Shown here: piece after piece, positions 610-8,855 of the stretch
Layout of the letters: the number at the start of each line of letters is the position of its first letter
Numbering within the stretch: the first letter of the stretch is position 1
Source: Nitrospira sp.
GTDB lineage: Bacteria; Nitrospirota; Nitrospiria; Nitrospirales; Nitrospiraceae
Assembly: GCA_029194535.1 (NCBI GenBank)
Contig: JARFXR010000002.1
Coordinates: 868,001-932,000 of the forward strand
Direction of reading: 5' to 3'
Length of the DNA stretch: 64,000 nucleotides
Notes under the pieces: generated by a model
What the model was told of the DNA's origin: nothing
Databases searched by the model: none
The model's input: the letters and a program-made list of their open reading frames with translations, nothing else
Program-made: the position numbers and the translations under genes

Positions 610-1428
610 ATGGCACATTCCCCCAAGAAGCAGCCCTTCCCGCGACATGTCTTCGACGCTATGTCGAAATCCGAATGTCAGAACTTTATCGAAGTGCTTC
701 ACTACACGACTCAGGCGCAGACTCCGGACGATGTCCGTGACGTCCTGCTCCGTTTTCAAGAATATTTTCCCTTCACGCGCACATTGGGAGGACTCGTCCG
801 TCTCGGCACGGGTGGCACCTTTGCAGGGTTCGCCAATATTGTCAATGGGAGCTATCCGGACGAATGGCTGTACTTGTATTGGAAGAGCGGGTACGCCGAA
901 ATCGACCCGGTCTTCACGTCGGCCTTACGCTCCCCCGGCACACAACATTGGCGCGCCACCTATCAGCACATGACCACGGAGAAACAACAGGAATTCATCG
1001 CGACCGCGAGGCAGTTCGGACTCGGCGATGGTATTACGACCGGCTCGGTCGATCAGGCCTGCGGATTGGCGACCTTCTGTTCGTTCGCCAGCGATCAGGC
1101 TCTCGATGCCGAGCGTCTGATTCCTCTCGTCGAGTATATGGGGTATCACATCCACATGGCCCTGATGCGCACGGCGCCGAAGAGTCTTCGAGAAACGGAT
1201 CGATGTGTCAAAGAACTCTCGCCGCGGGAAGTCACCATCCTCAATTGGATGAAAAACGGCAAGACGAACTGGGAAATCGGCAAAATTCTCGGCGTCAGTG
1301 AACGAACGGTCCGTTTCCACATCGAAGGGATCTTTGCCAAGTTGGAAGTCACCTCTCGATCACAGGCTGTTGCCACGGCCATCGAGCACGGTCTCCCCGC
1401 GCTTCACGGCCTTCCGACTGCCAGTTAA
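610..1428 (+). CDS. luxR: LuxR-family quorum-sensing transcription regulator
   Basis: The 272-residue protein has an N-terminal autoinducer-binding domain and a C-terminal LuxR helix-turn-helix (LSPREVTILNWMKNGKTNWE... then SERTVRFHI). In the ligand domain the W-x3-Y ... DPVF ... W pattern and a GLGDGITTG segment match the conserved acyl-homoserine-lactone pocket of LuxR/TraR proteins. I chose the ATG at 610 because GGAGG stands five bases ahead; an upstream ATG at 571 lacks a ribosome site. The family binds acyl-homoserine lactones in the cytoplasm and then lux boxes. Its 3' end faces luxI (31 bp apart), giving a convergent luxR/luxI pair. It probably controls luxI through the palindrome at 2309-2328. 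The pair resembles the LuxI/LuxR system reported for Nitrospira moscoviensis; identity to it was not tested. Confidence 0.9.
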   Translation: MAHSPKKQPFPRHVFDAMSKSECQNFIEVLHYTTQAQTPDDVRDVLLRFQEYFPFTRTLGGLVRLGTGGTFAGFANIVNGSYPDEWLYLYWKSGYAEIDPVFTSALRSPGTQHWRATYQHMTTEKQQEFIATARQFGLGDGITTGSVDQACGLATFCSFASDQALDAERLIPLVEYMGYHIHMALMRTAPKSLRETDRCVKELSPREVTILNWMKNGKTNWEIGKILGVSERTVRFHIEGIFAKLEVTSRSQAVATAIEHGLPALHGLPTAS

Positions 1429-1459: not shown

Positions 1460-2212
1460 CTACGCCGCCAGAACCAATCGCCGCCCTCCCGCCAATTCCG
1501 CGTGAAGCCCATCCGTAGAATTCTCTGAGCTCAGGCTCGGCCGCGTCTCAGCGATGCCGCAGTCGGTGAGCCACCGCAACATGTCAGGGCGTTGCACCGC
1601 CGCCTGACATCGAAATTCATCCAGATCGAGCAACGCGCCGATCGACGACACTTCGGCGGGAGGCAAGGCGACAGGCGCTCCGATGGAACGGCAGGGCCAA
1701 CCCATTCGTTCCACGACCCGCAACAGCCTGTGCTCGACGACCATATAGGTGTAACGGACATCATGGGCCACACACCACTGATACATCCCCTTAAAGATCG
1801 TGCGCACCAGCTTCGCCGAAAGACCTCGGTCGGTAATATCCGGGTCGACGCTCAACCTGGTAATTTCCGCGGTATCCAGCTCTTTCCGTACTTCGTGTTG
1901 TCCCACGAGACAGGCGCTGAATTCGCTTTCCAGCATGAACGGCACCGGGGCCTGCGTCATCCGAACCAAGCCCAGAAGGGTCGAGTCGGCGGAAAACACT
2001 CCGATCGAGGTGCTCCAGGCGTCGTACATGTCGGATTCAAGTCGGTCCGAACGCTCCGGCACCCATCTTAATCGCTCGGCAAATACCCGATGACGAAGCC
2101 GGTACGCCTGGCACCATTCAGATTTCCGTTCCAGTGTCTTCACAAGGAACGCGCCTTCCTGGAAGGAAATCCGCTTTTCTTCGGCTACCACCAAGTCGCT
2201 CGTTCCGCTCAT
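1460..2212 (-). CDS. luxI: Acyl-homoserine-lactone synthase, LuxI family
   Basis: This 250-residue protein shows the invariant LuxI-family residues: R-x3-F then W (YRLRHRVFAERLRW), an acidic D-x2-D (ESDMYD), LGLVRMTQA with the conserved Arg, and the E-x2-R signature in TAEITRLSVDP. LuxI enzymes join S-adenosylmethionine and an acyl-ACP chain to make N-acyl-homoserine lactones that diffuse between cells. At 250 residues it is longer than LuxI (about 190-220), with a C-terminal tail of about 40 residues that has no clear motif. An AAGGAGG sequence stands just upstream of the ATG at 2212. A 20-bp lux box lies about 97 bp upstream, so autoinduction by the neighbouring LuxR is likely. PEP-CTERM-associated acyltransferases are related in fold, but the nearby LuxR makes the signal-synthase reading much better. 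The acyl chain made cannot be predicted. Confidence 0.88.
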   Translation of the reverse strand: MSGTSDLVVAEEKRISFQEGAFLVKTLERKSEWCQAYRLRHRVFAERLRWVPERSDRLESDMYDAWSTSIGVFSADSTLLGLVRMTQAPVPFMLESEFSACLVGQHEVRKELDTAEITRLSVDPDITDRGLSAKLVRTIFKGMYQWCVAHDVRYTYMVVEHRLLRVVERMGWPCRSIGAPVALPPAEVSSIGALLDLDEFRCQAAVQRPDMLRWLTDCGIAETRPSLSSENSTDGLHAELAGGRRLVLAA

Positions 2213-2263: not shown

Positions 2264-2308
2264 GCAGTGCAGACGCGACGAATGGTTTCATTTCCCGTCA
2301 ACTCCGTC

Positions 2309-2328
2309 ACCTGGCCGACTCGCCAGGT
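2309..2328. promoter_or_regulatory. lux box upstream of luxI
   Basis: ACCTGGCCGACTCGCCAGGT is a 20-bp near-perfect palindrome whose ACCTG and CAGGT ends and overall length are the same as the Vibrio fischeri lux box. With one more base on each side the arms are 9-bp perfect inverted repeats around 6 bp (2307-2330). On the minus strand a TTGACG hexamer (2301-2296) follows after 7 bp and may be the luxI -35 box; the matching -10 is weak. The site lies in the gap shared by luxI (minus) and the histidine kinase at 2438 (plus), so it could act on either. Confidence 0.75.
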
Positions 2329-2437
2329 GATCGCGCACGACGATCGTGATAGTTAGGGTCCAGTATTGAGAGCGTTGTGTGGCGCAGCCACCGAGACGGC
2401 CACGGCAATCCGCCTGGCGGAAAGGGAGAGGTGAGGC

Positions 2438-3250
2438 GTGGGCGATCGCACGCATGGGTTCCAGGTGATCAGGGGCGCCGGCCAATCCGGCACAAGACCA
2501 CAGCGCTTTCGACCGGCCCAACACAGTCAGGGCGCGGTCGGGGGCATGGAAACCTTCGGCCCAGCGAAGAGCCGCGACGATCTGACCGCGGCATTGCGGG
2601 CCATGGAGCAACGATTGGCGGCCTTGGTCGAGGACCGCGGACAGCTCACGCGAGACTTGCACGACTGCGTGCTGCAGTCGCTGTACGCCATCGGGCTGAC
2701 CATAGAATCGAACCGACGGGCACAGCCTCAGCGGCAGCCGTTGTCCGACCGCGCTGACGATCTGCTCATCGAGCAGCTCAACACCCTGATCCAAGAGGTC
2801 CGGAACATGATCCGCACCCTGGAATCAGGCAACGTGCAGGAATTCGACCTCGTGTCCGAGCTCAAGGCCCTCATCAGGACCTACCGAGACATCAGCACGC
2901 TTCAGATCAGCATTGATATCGCGCCTCGCGCCATCGCCATAGCGACCAACGAAGAAAAGCGGGAAGTCTTGATGATCATTCGAGAGGCGGTGAGCAACTG
3001 CGTCCGCCATGCCAAGGCGACTCGAGCCAGCATCTCCCTCTACGCCCAAGGACCTCACCTCCGGTTGGCGATCGCGGATGACGGGGTGGGCTTCACGCCG
3101 GGAGACAATCGCACAAAGGGGTATGGATTTGCCAACATGTCCGCACGGGCCAAGAAGCTCGGCGGGCGACTCTTAGTCCGCTCGCATGTCGGAGAAGGAA
3201 CCCACATTCTGGTGGAGTTCTCTCTGGAACCCGAGCATCTGGCGCTATGA
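2438..3250 (+). CDS. NarL-type sensor histidine kinase (HisKA_3/HATPase)
   Basis: The protein has a coiled-coil-like stretch, then a HisKA_3 dimerisation box with the phospho-acceptor His in RDLHDCVLQSLYAIGL (His75 from the GTG start), and a GHKL ATPase domain with the N-box REAVSNCVRHA and G-box DDGVGF. No membrane helix or recognisable sensor domain is visible, so it is a small cytosolic kinase that may read its signal through a partner. I use the GTG at 2438, preceded by a GGGAGAGG ribosome-like site; an ATG at 2546 is a fair alternative because the first 36 residues look unstructured. Its stop overlaps the ATG of the response regulator at 3247, the usual sign of a cognate pair. A lux box lies 110 bp upstream, so quorum control is possible. 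Confidence 0.85.
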   Translation: MGDRTHGFQVIRGAGQSGTRPQRFRPAQHSQGAVGGMETFGPAKSRDDLTAALRAMEQRLAALVEDRGQLTRDLHDCVLQSLYAIGLTIESNRRAQPQRQPLSDRADDLLIEQLNTLIQEVRNMIRTLESGNVQEFDLVSELKALIRTYRDISTLQISIDIAPRAIAIATNEEKREVLMIIREAVSNCVRHAKATRASISLYAQGPHLRLAIADDGVGFTPGDNRTKGYGFANMSARAKKLGGRLLVRSHVGEGTHILVEFSLEPEHLAL

Positions 3251-3924
3251 TAAAGGATCTCCCGCTCAAGATCGTCATCGTCGACGATCATGAGGTCGTC
3301 CGACACGGACTCCGCTCGCTGTTGAGCCTGGAGCAGGACTTCAAGATCATCGGGGAGGCCGGGACCGTGGCGGAGGCGTTGGCCGTGGTGGAGCTGGTCA
3401 AACCTCACGTAGTCCTCCTCGACGTCAAATTACCGGACGCGACCGGCATGGACGCTTGCCGCAAGCTCCTCGCCGTTGCGCCCAATCTGCGCATTCTCAT
3501 CTTGACGAGCTACGCGGAGGACGCGTCGATCATCGGCGCCGTGCAGAGCGGCGCCCACGGATACGTCCTAAAGGATATTCGCACCGACGAATTGATCCAG
3601 GCCATCCGCGCGGTCGCCGGCGGCCGCGGCCATTTGGACCCCCGGGTCGCCCAGCAGGCGCTGCATTGGATCCGAACGCAGTACCGGGCGGAGGGCAACG
3701 GCCGCCAAATCCCCAAGCTCTCCCCTCAAGAGCGTTTGATCGTGCCTCTCCTCGCGCAAGGCAAAACCAACAAGGAAATCGCGGCGCATCTGAGCCTAAG
3801 CGACAAGACGGTCAAAAACTACCTCGCGAACATCTTCGAGAAGCTCAACGTCAGACGCCGCACCGAGGCGGTGGCATGGTTCGTCAAGGAAGGCCGTTCG
3901 ACGTACTCGGGGCCCAATACCTAG
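3247..3924 (+). CDS. NarL/FixJ-type response regulator
   Basis: The 225-residue protein has a receiver domain (acidic pair Asp13/Asp14 in IVDDHE, phospho-acceptor Asp59 in VVLLDVKLPD, conserved Lys in GYVLKDI) and a LuxR-type HTH (LSPQERLIVPLLAQGKTNKE, then SDKTVKNYL). It overlaps the upstream kinase by four bases (ATGA) and is surely its partner. It very likely binds DNA when phosphorylated; targets are unknown. Its sequence and design are close to the regulator at 8175, which suggests that the two kinase/regulator pairs arose by duplication. Confidence 0.9.
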   Translation: MIKDLPLKIVIVDDHEVVRHGLRSLLSLEQDFKIIGEAGTVAEALAVVELVKPHVVLLDVKLPDATGMDACRKLLAVAPNLRILILTSYAEDASIIGAVQSGAHGYVLKDIRTDELIQAIRAVAGGRGHLDPRVAQQALHWIRTQYRAEGNGRQIPKLSPQERLIVPLLAQGKTNKEIAAHLSLSDKTVKNYLANIFEKLNVRRRTEAVAWFVKEGRSTYSGPNT

Positions 3925-4044: not shown

Positions 4045-7000
4045 ATGGCATCGAGCACCGGATTCGATCAGCCGGCCGACCGGTCCGACATGGAGCAGCC
4101 CATGATTCGGCAGTCCGACAGCGAGCCCTCCGCCGCGACCGACCTCCATCTCCTGCTCACGCAATTGACCGAGCTCCGTCGAGCCATGGAGCAATCCGTC
4201 GAATTCGACGATGGACTCGACCAACGTCTAAGCGCCGCGCTCCGCGGCCGTATTCGGGATTGCGACGCGCAGCTTGCGCACGTCATCGGGCACTTGGACC
4301 ACCATCGACGTCAGCATGAATCCGTCGAGTCGGAAAGGCATGAGAGCGAGCAGCGATATCGGTCGCTCTACGACAACAATCCCTCCATGTATTTCACCCT
4401 GTCAGCGGGAGGGGTGGTTATCTCCGTTAATAAGTACGGCGCGGAGCAGTTGGGATATGAGCCGGCCGATTTGATCGGTCGATCGGTTCTTCCGGTGTTC
4501 AAACCGGACGACCATGAGGTCGTCCTGAGACAGCTCAGTCTCTGCATGACGAACCCCGGCAAGTTGTTCGAATGGGAAATTCAGAAGATCCGGAAAAACG
4601 GCACGGAGCTCTGGGTACGAGAACGGGCGCAGGCGATTCAGGATCGAACCGGCCAGACCCTGGTGCTCGTGGTGTGCGAGGACGTGACCGCCAGACGCCG
4701 CACCGAGGAGATCGTCAGGGAGAGCGAGGAGCGGTGGAGGGCCCTCTATGAACATGCAGGGATCGGGATCGCCCAGCTCGATTTGAACGGGCGGTTCGTC
4801 CGCGTGAACCCCCGACTGTGCGAAACGTTGGACTATTCGTCGGCGATGTTGCTCCAGCGGACGTTCCAGGATCTCCTCCATCCCGACGACCTCGAACCCA
4901 GCATCGGATGTCTCCAAGAATTGCTCGCCGGAACCCGCCCGTCCTTCTCGATGGAAAAGCGCTACTTACGCAGCGACGATGTCTGGGTATGGGTCGACAT
5001 GACCGTGTCGCTCGTCCGGGCCGCTTCCGGCGCGCCGGCCTATTTGATCGCCGTCATTCAGAGTATCCACGCTCGGAAGGAAGCCGAGGACGCTGTTCGT
5101 CGAACCACCCATCTCCTCCAGACACTCGTGCGGGCTTCTCCGCTCCCGATCATCAGCCTCGATTGTGACGCGCGGGTGACGACGTGGAATCCGGCCGCGA
5201 CCAGATTGTTCGGCTGGACCGAAGAGGAAGTCCTGGGCCGCGAACTTCCCTATGTCCCGGAAGATGAAGCGTCAACGGCGGACACCCTGTGGGAGCAGGG
5301 CTTGCGCGGAGAGGTCCAAGGGCCGATTGAGCTTCGCCGCCGCCGGAAGGACGGCGCGATCCTGAATCTCCTACTCTGGCCGGTCTTCGTGCGACTGAAC
5401 GACGGAGCGGTCTCGACCGCCGTCGGCCTCTACGTCGATCAATCCGATCTCAAACGAGCCGAAGCGGCTCAGTTGAAGAGCGAACTCCGCCTGCGTTCGT
5501 TCCTCGATGCGCTGGATGATCTGGCCTTCGAATTCGACGAAAACGGGACCTATCTGAGCGTGTGGACGCGCAACGAGGAGAATCTGCTGGTCCCGCGGCG
5601 CGAGGTGGTCGGCAAGCGATTGCGCGACATCTTCGGCGCCCAGGAAGGCGCGCGCTACCTCGACGCCATTCGTCGAGTGCTCGCCACCGGCCGGCCTGAA
5701 CCCATCGAGTACACAATTCCGATCAATGGGCAACCTCGGAATTTCTCAGCCATTATGAGCCGGATTCCTGCCTTCGACGATGCCTCGGCAACCGTGGCAT
5801 GCGTCGTGCGGGATGTCACGGATCAGAAACAAGCCCAAGAGACCTTGCGCGACAGCGAGCAAGCGATCCGGTCGCTGCATGAGGCCACCTCGAATCCCGG
5901 ACTCAGCCACGAGCAACGAATTCAGACCGTCTTGGAACTCGGCTGCCGCCGGTTCCGGCTCCCGATCGGCGTCGTGACCAGACTGCGCGGTGATGAAGTG
6001 GAGATCACGCACATCTGCGGGCCCCTCACTGCCTTTTCCCCCGGCATGCGACTGCCTCTGCGCCAGACGTACTGCTGCGCCACGTTGGAATCGAAGCGAG
6101 TGGTCTCGTTCGAGCACGCGAAGGCCTCGGGATGGGTCGATCATCCAGGCTATGAGACGCTCGGTTTCGAGTGTTACATCGGCACGAGAGTGCGGGGTGA
6201 AAGCAAAATGCACGGCACGATTTGCTTCCTCAGCGCGGAGCCGCGACCGACGCCGTTCAGCGAGGCGGACAAAGACTTCCTGCTGCTGATGGCGAAGTGG
6301 ATCGCCGTAGAATCAGACCGCAGCCTGGCTGAACGACGGCTGGAGCGCATTAACGAGTGTTTTCTCAAGTCTGGAGGCGATCCGCTGGAGAATGTCCAGC
6401 GACTGACCGCCCTCTGCGGAGGGCTCCTCGAGGGGAGCTGCGCCCTCTATTCGCGACTCGAAGGAGAGTTCCTCTCCGCGGTAGGTCAGTGGCAGGCGCC
6501 TCCGGAGTTTCAGGCGGTGGACAGGGCCGAAGGCCATTTGTGCACGGAGTTGATTCGGCGTGGAGAGGCCGACCTCGTCACCATCCGTCATCTTCCCGAC
6601 ACCTCCTATGCCGAGACCGACCCAAACGTCCGCCTGTATCAATTGCAAACATACATCGGCAAGGTCGTTTCGATCGATGACGAGGCGGTCGGTTCGCTGT
6701 GTGTGGTCTTTGATCGTGATTTCATCCCGACCGAAGCGGACGAGCGGTTGATGGGGATACTGGCGGCGGCCATCGGAACGGAGGAACAACGGATCCAGGC
6801 GCAGAAAGCCCTGCGTGCCAGCGAAGAGCGGTTTGCCAAGGCATTTCGATCAAGCCCCTACCCGGTGATTATGACCGTGTTGGACTCGGGAAAGTGTCTT
6901 GAGGTCAACGACGCGGCGCTCAAGCTCTTCGGCTACGAACGGGGCGAGGTCGTCGGCCGAACGGCGGTTGCCTTGGGACTTTGCGCGGACCTTGAGGAAC

Positions 7001-8175
7001 GCGAGACATTCTTCGAGAAGCTGCGGCGCGAGAACGTCGTTCGCAATTACGAAATGTCGCTGAAAGCGAAGGACGGGACCATCCGTCAAGTGCTCGTCTC
7101 CAGCGAAATCATCGAAGTTCACGGGTCGACCTGTGTCTTGACCGTGGGCAGCGACATCACCGAACAGAAGCAAGCCGAGAGCGCGCTGCGCACCAGCGAA
7201 TTGCGTCTGCAGCGGTTCGTCTCCGAAGCGCCGGTCGGGCTGGTCATCTTGGACCGGCACAGGCGGTTGATGAGCGCCAACAGAGCATTCTGCGAACTGA
7301 CGGGATATGACGAGCGGGAGTTGATCGGTCGAAGCTACGACCTCTACACCCACCCGGACGATCTTGCTCCCAATCTCGAACTGACCGACGACTTCTATCG
7401 AGGGATTCTGAAAGAGTACTCGATTGAGAAGCGGTATCTGCGGAAAACAGGCGAGACGATCTGGGTGTCCCTGAAGGCGACCGGGATCGAACTACCCAAC
7501 CAGCCGGGCCCGCTGCTGCTCGCTGTCGTACAGGACATCACGGATCAGAAGCGTGCCACGGAGGAGCGCGAACGACTCAGCCAGGATTTGCACGACAATA
7601 TCCTGCAATCGCTCTACGCGGTAGGGATGCAGCTGGAGGCCAGCGCGTTGGCGGCCGGGAAGTCCGTCAGGAAGTCGAGGAACCACGCGAGCCAGGCGAT
7701 CGACCAGTTGAATCGCCTCGTGAACGACGTGCGGCACTACATCGCCTTGCTGAAGCGGGGCGGAGGCGCAAAGATGAACCTCCACCAGGCGTTGCGCCAA
7801 CTGGTTTCGTCTTTCTCGACGACCGGACATCGTCCTCCCGAGCTGGAGATCAAGGAGGGCGTGCTCGACCTCATCACCACGGAACAGGCCGAGCAGCTGC
7901 TGAATATCGCGCGCGAAGCGCTGAGCAACAGCGTGCGCCATGCCAACGCGACGCATCGGTCCGTCCGACTCAGCTCGCTGGGGCCCGCCGGTATGCGGAT
8001 GCAAATCTGCGACGACGGCATCGGCTTCGTGCCGAAGCTCGAACGCAAACAGGGTCACGGCCTTGCGAACATGGCCGCCAGGGCGAAAAAGATCGGCGCC
8101 CGGCTGCGGCTGACCAGCAAACCGAACTACGGCACCTGCGTCACCGTGGAGCTGTCGCGAACGGAGCCGTCATAA
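4045..8175 (+). CDS. Large multi-PAS/GAF NarL-type sensor histidine kinase
   Basis: This 1376-residue kinase has no membrane segments. Reading from the N-terminus it contains about four PAS domains (residues about 105-220, 230-345, 355-475, 485-600), two GAF domains (about 610-770 and 775-930), two more PAS domains (about 935-1050 and 1060-1175), a HisKA_3 box with LSQDLHDNILQSLYAVGM, and a HATPase domain (AREALSNSVRHA, CDDGIGF). PAS linkers end in the usual DITEQK/DVTDQK signature. It should integrate several cytoplasmic signals. The kinase box is nearly the same as in the small kinase at 2438. The stop codon overlaps the ATG of the regulator at 8175. The start at 4045 has no strong ribosome site, so the exact N-terminus is open. 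Confidence 0.88.
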   Translation: MASSTGFDQPADRSDMEQPMIRQSDSEPSAATDLHLLLTQLTELRRAMEQSVEFDDGLDQRLSAALRGRIRDCDAQLAHVIGHLDHHRRQHESVESERHESEQRYRSLYDNNPSMYFTLSAGGVVISVNKYGAEQLGYEPADLIGRSVLPVFKPDDHEVVLRQLSLCMTNPGKLFEWEIQKIRKNGTELWVRERAQAIQDRTGQTLVLVVCEDVTARRRTEEIVRESEERWRALYEHAGIGIAQLDLNGRFVRVNPRLCETLDYSSAMLLQRTFQDLLHPDDLEPSIGCLQELLAGTRPSFSMEKRYLRSDDVWVWVDMTVSLVRAASGAPAYLIAVIQSIHARKEAEDAVRRTTHLLQTLVRASPLPIISLDCDARVTTWNPAATRLFGWTEEEVLGRELPYVPEDEASTADTLWEQGLRGEVQGPIELRRRRKDGAILNLLLWPVFVRLNDGAVSTAVGLYVDQSDLKRAEAAQLKSELRLRSFLDALDDLAFEFDENGTYLSVWTRNEENLLVPRREVVGKRLRDIFGAQEGARYLDAIRRVLATGRPEPIEYTIPINGQPRNFSAIMSRIPAFDDASATVACVVRDVTDQKQAQETLRDSEQAIRSLHEATSNPGLSHEQRIQTVLELGCRRFRLPIGVVTRLRGDEVEITHICGPLTAFSPGMRLPLRQTYCCATLESKRVVSFEHAKASGWVDHPGYETLGFECYIGTRVRGESKMHGTICFLSAEPRPTPFSEADKDFLLLMAKWIAVESDRSLAERRLERINECFLKSGGDPLENVQRLTALCGGLLEGSCALYSRLEGEFLSAVGQWQAPPEFQAVDRAEGHLCTELIRRGEADLVTIRHLPDTSYAETDPNVRLYQLQTYIGKVVSIDDEAVGSLCVVFDRDFIPTEADERLMGILAAAIGTEEQRIQAQKALRASEERFAKAFRSSPYPVIMTVLDSGKCLEVNDAALKLFGYERGEVVGRTAVALGLCADLEERETFFEKLRRENVVRNYEMSLKAKDGTIRQVLVSSEIIEVHGSTCVLTVGSDITEQKQAESALRTSELRLQRFVSEAPVGLVILDRHRRLMSANRAFCELTGYDERELIGRSYDLYTHPDDLAPNLELTDDFYRGILKEYSIEKRYLRKTGETIWVSLKATGIELPNQPGPLLLAVVQDITDQKRATEERERLSQDLHDNILQSLYAVGMQLEASALAAGKSVRKSRNHASQAIDQLNRLVNDVRHYIALLKRGGGAKMNLHQALRQLVSSFSTTGHRPPELEIKEGVLDLITTEQAEQLLNIAREALSNSVRHANATHRSVRLSSLGPAGMRMQICDDGIGFVPKLERKQGHGLANMAARAKKIGARLRLTSKPNYGTCVTVELSRTEPS

Positions 8176-8855
8176 TGGCGGCGCGCACCGCACACATCCG
8201 CCTCCTGATCGTCGACGACCACGAAGTCGTGCGGATCGGACTGGCCGCCGTCCTGGATCTGACGCCCGGCATCAAGGTCGTCGGACAGGCCTCCCGCAAG
8301 GACGAAGCCACACGGTTGTGTCTCCGGCTCAAACCGGATCTGGTCCTCCTGGATATTCGCCTTCCCGACGGCAGCGGCGTAGAGGCCGCGCGCGATATTC
8401 TCGCGGCCTGTCCGAATACCCGTGTGTTGTTTCTAACCAGCTTTGCGGACGACCATACGGTCCTGGAGGCGATTCTGTCGGGAGGCCAAGGCTACGTGCT
8501 CAAGGACATCGCAGCCGACGTCCTGGTCAAAGCGATCAAGACCGTGGCCTCGGGCCAGCCGTTGATGGATCCCCGACTCACCAAGTACACGCTGCAGCTG
8601 ATCAAACACGGACCGTCGCAGCCGGGGGCGTCCAAGCGTCCCCTCCTGTCCCCGCAGGAACAACGATTGCTTCCGTTCGTGGCCGAGGGCTTGACCAACA
8701 AGGAGATCGCCGGGCAGCTGAACCTGAGCGAGAAGACCGTCAAGAATTACCTGGCAAACATCTACTCCAAGCTTCAGATCGGTCGACGCTCGCAAGTTGC
8801 GGCCTTCTACGCCGGAAGCTTCAAGAATCTGAGCGCACCGCCCACACCCAAGTGA
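8175..8855 (+). CDS. NarL/FixJ-type response regulator
   Basis: This 226-residue protein has a receiver domain (Asp14/Asp15 in IVDDHE, phospho-acceptor Asp60 in LVLLDIRLPDG, Lys in GYVLKDI) and a C-terminal LuxR-type HTH (LSPQEQRLLPFVAEGLTNKE, then SEKTVKNYLANIY). The first base of its ATG is the last base of the stop codon of the multi-PAS kinase at 4045, so the two are translationally coupled and cognate. It is a paralogue of the regulator at 3247. Targets are unknown; the next gene downstream has its own promoter. Confidence 0.9.
   Translation: MAARTAHIRLLIVDDHEVVRIGLAAVLDLTPGIKVVGQASRKDEATRLCLRLKPDLVLLDIRLPDGSGVEAARDILAACPNTRVLFLTSFADDHTVLEAILSGGQGYVLKDIAADVLVKAIKTVASGQPLMDPRLTKYTLQLIKHGPSQPGASKRPLLSPQEQRLLPFVAEGLTNKEIAGQLNLSEKTVKNYLANIYSKLQIGRRSQVAAFYAGSFKNLSAPPTPK

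Follow-up and report, generated by a model that had tools for sequence, protein, structure and literature searches.

The palindrome and its setting

Between a luxI gene and a divergently transcribed histidine kinase gene of Nitrospira sp. lies a perfect palindrome, and its position raises the question of which protein binds it and which of the two genes it serves. In the window, the whole 64,000-nucleotide stretch of DNA analysed here, direct reading of positions 2307-2330 gives TCACCTGGC-cgactc-GCCAGGTGA, two 9-nt arms with 100% complementarity around a 6-nt spacer. The first-pass annotation had described a lux box of the form ACCTG-N10-CAGGT with 9-bp arms at this place, upstream of both luxI and the kinase, and the exact sequence confirms the element and its position. 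The 20-bp box proper (ACCTGGCCGACTCGCCAGGT, 2309-2328, no strand assigned) precedes both genes, luxI by 96 bp (ATG at 2212, minus strand) and the kinase by 109 bp (GTG at 2438). Its fixed bases, 14 in all, read ACCTGGC-N6-GCCAGGT.

The lux box of V. fischeri is a 20-bp dyad with the ends ACCTG...CAGGT, and its -10 follows at a distance of about 22 nt. The window element resembles it in the ends of the 20-bp dyad, in its location within a divergent promoter region and in the predicted -10 at about 22 nt. It differs in its core (GGC-N6-GCC), in the divergent gene, which is a kinase and not luxR, and in luxR itself, which is convergent with luxI. Membership in the lux-box class is indicated by an inverted repeat of about 20 bp with CTG/CAG-containing arms, here a perfect dyad, by a position upstream of an AHL-regulated gene, usually luxI, and by phylogenetic co-occurrence with luxI; all of these are found for the window element.

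The window's genome was scanned for lux boxes by pattern. ACCTG-N10-CAGGT has a single exact copy in the 64-kb window, at 2309-2328, and when one mismatch is allowed the window holds 2 sites against 1.4 expected from shuffles, a count close to the shuffle level, so that the loose form carries no weight by itself. The more fully specified ACCTGGC-N6-GCCAGGT, in contrast to its expected frequency of ~0.035 per 4-Mb genome, was observed twice in the window's genome.

Conservation across the family

A lux-box reading would be undermined if the palindrome were missing upstream of luxI in related strains. It survives this comparison: in a first survey, each of the 34 related luxI loci whose upstream DNA was long enough to judge had a perfect or near-perfect palindrome (34/34), as a rule 100-280 bp before luxI. 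Among 175 family genomes, 86 have both a perfect box and luxI, 78 have neither, three have the box only and eight have luxI only (Fisher p = 3e-36), while a reversed-pattern control matches only 3 of the 175. The conservation at all 34 loci and the co-occurrence with luxI across the 175 genomes together argue that the box is not a product of chance. LuxI relatives are present in 94 of the 175 genomes. The luxI relatives recovered from named genomes all belong to Nitrospira, Nitrospirae or Nitrospirota records.

The eight luxI-only genomes include four with near-perfect boxes (G072, G106, G108, G139), one apparent contig edge (G095), one apparent luxI fragment (G146) and one luxI remnant (G070). 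The single apparent true loss is G065, in which luxI and luxR are kept, but no perfect box is present and HK1 is not next to luxI. Of the three box-only genomes, G138 is cut at a contig end and G140 shows a clean loss of luxI and luxR; the third is G142, with its perfect box at L126.

LuxR as the probable binding protein

The luxR gene (610..1428, plus strand, alternative start 571) and luxI (1460..2212, minus strand) are convergent. By domain content their products form an AHL LuxI/LuxR pair, with Autoind_synth (2e-22) in the synthase and Autoind_bind (3e-18) and GerE (2e-20) in the receptor, all Pfam matches above curated cut-offs. A search of the genome identified this LuxR as its only Autoind_bind protein. 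The closest solved relative is CviR from Chromobacterium violaceum (E = 5e-34), which matches over nearly the full length and whose ligand-pocket residues Y/W/Y/D/W are aligned in register with the window LuxR. CviR, however, is a proteobacterial protein with another regulon.

A more direct comparison is offered by the Nitrospira LuxR protein NspR1, which was reported in 2021 to bind ACCTGGCGGTTCCGCCAGGT between nspI and a divergent gene, and which in the presence of C8-HSL raised gfp expression 197-fold toward the divergent gene and 14-fold toward nspI (PMC8553950). For its binding, NspR1 needed RNA polymerase. The study (npj Biofilms Microbiomes) dealt with one metagenomic Nitrospira. Its site and the window box share all 14 fixed bases, the location in the gap between luxI and a divergent gene, and the clade. 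Because of the identity of the fixed bases, the predicted binding of the window LuxR at 2309-2328 can, by homology, be considered close to established. Given the published binding and activation, a lux box in the window would be expected, and the annotation's remark that such a box is unusual for a non-proteobacterial genome has to be dropped: a Nitrospira lux box has been in print since 2021, and LuxI occurs in more than a third of Nitrospirales genomes (PMC12342949).

The two systems differ in the divergent gene. PMC8553950 names the NspR1 target as a GGDEF/EAL gene, whereas a NarL-type histidine kinase is found here and in 90/92 luxI loci; no GGDEF/EAL gene occupies the divergent position among the loci that we examined, which does not match that description. 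A search of the text of that paper for 'histidine kinase' returned nothing, and the sections consulted report neither conservation throughout the family nor luxI-less variants. Judged against open-licence papers, the findings described below on the kinase wiring throughout the family, the asymmetry of the promoter and the variants without luxI appear to be new.

The kinase side of the box

The first gene to the right, HK1 (2438..3250, plus strand), encodes a short NarL-type histidine kinase with HisKA_3 and HATPase_c as its only Pfam matches, and thus without a sensor domain recognised by Pfam. It overlaps by 4 bp with RR1 (3247..3924, plus strand), a NarL-type response regulator with Response_reg and GerE domains, which lies downstream of HK1 in most loci.

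The box might serve the autoinduction of luxI only, with the kinase as a chance divergent bystander. An upstream lux box that autoinduces luxI is the textbook arrangement, and the GAC beside the box varies less towards luxI than towards the kinase. A bystander would not, however, be expected to be such a regular neighbour: of the 92 luxI loci for which 1.3 kb or more of upstream DNA was available, 90 have an HK1 orthologue divergent from luxI. The 92 derive from two overlapping collections and do not represent 92 independent species.

The promoter geometry also argues against a bystander. A TA located 21-24 nt from the box is present on the kinase side of 63 of 64 non-redundant loci, but on the luxI side of only 2 of 58. 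Shuffling gave a mean of 14.7 for the kinase side, with 29 as the largest value in 5000 shuffles; these preserve base composition but take no account of shared ancestry, and a better control is provided by the luxI flanks of those loci. When the strict TAnnnT was used as the test for a -10, the kinase-side enrichment was moderate (14/64, shuffle mean 4.8, maximum 13), and the near-invariant feature is therefore the position of the TA and not TAnnnT. In the window, the predicted -10 (tgaTAGTTA, 2350..2355, plus strand), assigned from the TA position across loci, sits 22 nt past the box and is a weak match to TATAAT. The kinase side has the layout of a class II lux promoter, with the box at the -35 position and the -10 ~20 nt downstream. 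The stronger activation by NspR1 toward the divergent gene (PMC8553950) fits a better -10 in that direction.

Directly downstream of the box are HK1 and RR1 only. A second pair, formed by a multi-PAS histidine kinase (4045..8175, plus strand; PAS, HisKA_3, HATPase_c) and the NarL-type response regulator RR2 (8175..8855, plus strand; Response_reg, GerE), begins 120 bp further on, and in some relatives other genes stand in place of its PAS kinase. A terminator scan found none in the 120-bp gap between RR1 and the PAS kinase. Control of this pair by read-through from the box is possible, but unproven.

The luxI side of the box

With a TA at 21-24 nt in so few loci, the luxI side does not have the class II layout. 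About 18-28 nt from the box it carries instead the element ATGAAACCAT (2282..2291, minus strand), whose family form is ATGG-AA-CCAT. This motif class occurs in 29 of 58 luxI-side flanks versus 1 of 64 kinase-side flanks (shuffle mean 2.8, maximum 12). The element is palindromic and sits where a luxI-side -10 would be expected. We read the palindrome as a lux box that serves luxI and, very probably, also the divergent kinase.

We also considered the luxI-side ATGGAACCAT as the beginning of a leader peptide, as it provides an ATG in many species. This reading was rejected: the peptide would start ahead of the point where transcription is expected to begin, and in some species the position lacks a start codon. 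Separately, two 18-nt direct repeats of the TCTGAACAAGGGTTCAAA type (family D2; 2224-2241 and 2246-2263, spaced 22 nt, 89%) are located directly upstream of the luxI ribosome-binding site.

Loci without luxI

In six genomes (G074, G119, G102, G090, G070 and G063) an HK1 orthologue is found without an intact luxI. Four of them (G074, G119, G102, G090) retain a box with one mismatch (CCCTGGC...GCCAGGT) upstream of HK1, G070 retains one with two mismatches, and no box was found in G063. The -10 of the five box-bearing loci is TATGAT or TATAAT, with 5-6 consensus matches, compared with mostly 3-4 in luxI-bearing loci. An alignment of four LuxR proteins from luxI-less genomes shows that the N-terminal helix and the HTH are kept and that the AHL-binding core is lost; consistently, Pfam returns GerE and no Autoind_bind for those of G074, G090 and G070. 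The luxI-less variant thus has no intact autoinducer-binding LuxR and does not qualify as an AHL system. G070 combines a stop-interrupted luxI remnant, a LuxR devoid of the AHL core, a degenerate box and a consensus -10 (L121), and we read it as an intermediate stage of circuit decay. In G140 the luxI and luxR genes are missing and uvrC now faces the box, which is perfect and accompanied by HK1 as before; this locus points the same way as the other luxI-less loci.

These loci are most simply explained if selection acts on the kinase promoter itself and if this promoter, after loss of the signal, drifts toward activator-independent strength. A box kept upstream of HK1 in species that lack luxI argues against a role in luxI autoinduction only, which we consider improbable. 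The annotation had proposed that quorum sensing may control both kinase/regulator pairs. For the first of them, the TA position, the divergent HK1 and the luxI-less loci all speak for this, and direct control of HK1-RR1 by the box is strongly supported.

Further boxes and other candidate binding proteins

If not LuxR, RR1 or RR2 could be the protein that binds the palindrome and thereby autoregulates a two-component operon. RR1 has a DNA-binding domain of the same class, a GerE-type HTH, and the box persists in loci without luxI. These same loci nevertheless keep the HTH of LuxR wherever they keep a box, except in G140 as judged at this locus, and together with the experimental binding of the sequence by a Nitrospira LuxR (PMC8553950) they argue against autoregulation by a response regulator. 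Furthermore, G014 has luxI and a box with no HK1 alongside, and additional perfect boxes precede PilZ and RHS genes that are unlinked to HK1. We therefore regard this explanation as very improbable. That the palindrome is a transcription terminator or an RNA hairpin has next to no probability in spite of its perfect 9-pair stem, given its position between divergent genes and upstream of both, the absence of a T-run, a terminator scan that finds nothing at the palindrome, and the conservation of the DNA words ACCTGGC and GCCAGGT around a variable 6-nt centre.

The annotation had suggested a search of the genome for more copies of the palindrome, and this search yielded one further perfect site (C1:2223607), so that the window's genome has two perfect boxes only, this one and that between luxI and HK1. 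The second box (L070:4001-4020, equivalent to G000:C1:2223607-2223626) lies 45 bp upstream of a PilZ gene and has a TACTGT exactly 22 nt away; gene, box and -10 are also present in the congener G001 (L050:3001-3020), the distance to the gene being 45-46 bp over the two genomes. In another genus, G136 and G137 have perfect boxes with TAGTGT or TAATGT before a different PilZ gene. As the window's genome contains 28 PilZ domain matches, a single case of a box beside a PilZ gene means little, and the conservation and the repetition in another genus mean more.

The right geometry, with the -10 at 22 nt, is also seen for boxes in front of an RHS-repeat gene in G014 (L052:3001-3020) and, in G137 (L129:3001-3020), in front of a gene that looks RHS-like by inspection of its sequence only. 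G014 has another perfect box at L051:3001-3020, followed by genes that we take to resemble methionine salvage enzymes. LuxI produces methylthioadenosine, so a link between the box and methionine salvage would make sense. By comparison, the perfect box in G054 (L053) is flanked on neither side by such promoter geometry and appears to be there by chance.

A relaxed search of the window's genome with 2 mismatches returned 20 sites versus 34 for the reversed control, and no regulon can therefore be claimed beyond the two perfect sites. A fuller promoter model of the same genome recovered these two loci and nothing else convincing. The third best site of the genome, C2:690086, was dropped as it is inside a coding region.

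Proposed mechanism

Based on these data, we propose with a probability of about 0.87 that the palindrome is the operator of the LuxR encoded at 610, from which AHL-LuxR would activate both luxI and HK1-RR1. AHL made by LuxI would charge LuxR dimers, which would then bind the palindrome. Leftward activation into luxI would provide positive feedback, and rightward activation into HK1-RR1 would use the box as it overlaps the -35 position, with the predicted -10 (TAGTTA) 22 nt further on. More AHL would thus lead to more of a sensorless NarL-type kinase and its regulator, and the two might relay the population signal onward to further genes. Points against this proposal are the weak match of TAGTTA to TATAAT, the GGDEF/EAL name given to the divergent target in PMC8553950, and G065 with its luxI and luxR but no perfect box.

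Nitrospira are key nitrifiers of soils and treatment plants and are hard to grow and to manipulate. The comparative evidence names HK1-RR1 as a conserved direct quorum output in these bacteria and a PilZ (c-di-GMP) protein as a lineage-specific one. The same evidence predicts that most of the Nitrospira quorum response is relayed via RR1, which could explain the near-absence of other responsive promoters in a lux-box scan of a Nitrospira metagenome. Species that have the promoter and no AHL genes allow the rewiring of a quorum circuit to be compared in nature.

A possible exchange of the signal module

The interval between uvrC and HK1 is normally occupied by fadL-luxR-luxI. The complete interval was read in G074 and G090, and there it encodes a second LuxR-type protein (LuxR2), a 486-aa protein that matches nothing in Pfam, a FabF-like ketosynthase, a P450 and the truncated LuxR. 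As far as G119 and G102 were read, they have the same cassette genes. G159 has both modules side by side, with the cassette downstream of the box and HK1. Orthologues of the P450 occur in 9 of 175 genomes, and an HK1-type kinase adjoins the cassette in the inspected genomes except G012, which has a PAS kinase there. Overall, only some Nitrospiraceae, a minority, carry the cassette, either in the luxI position or next to HK1-type kinases (L134, L140, L116-L119, L121, L135-L139).

LuxR2 gives a weak match to the autoinducer domain and, as aligned, does not keep the tryptophans of the AHL pocket; a signal made and sensed by the cassette may therefore be something other than an AHL. It is tempting, if doubtful, to view box-HK1-RR1 as a fixed output port for swappable signal modules, one of which, the LuxR2 cassette, may use a fatty-acid- or polyketide-like signal; that the cassette makes a signal at all is a guess. 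If true, the LuxR2/ketosynthase/P450 cassette would be a quorum system not yet described.

A FadL-type outer-membrane transporter gene is located beside luxR in the window (1 to about 480, minus strand; Toluene_X 2.5e-32). FadL has been linked to long-chain AHLs in rhizobia (PMC9938287), and on this basis the transporter may admit the AHL signal. The gene is complete in L132:5089-6531, and similar proteins are encoded beside luxR in many related loci.
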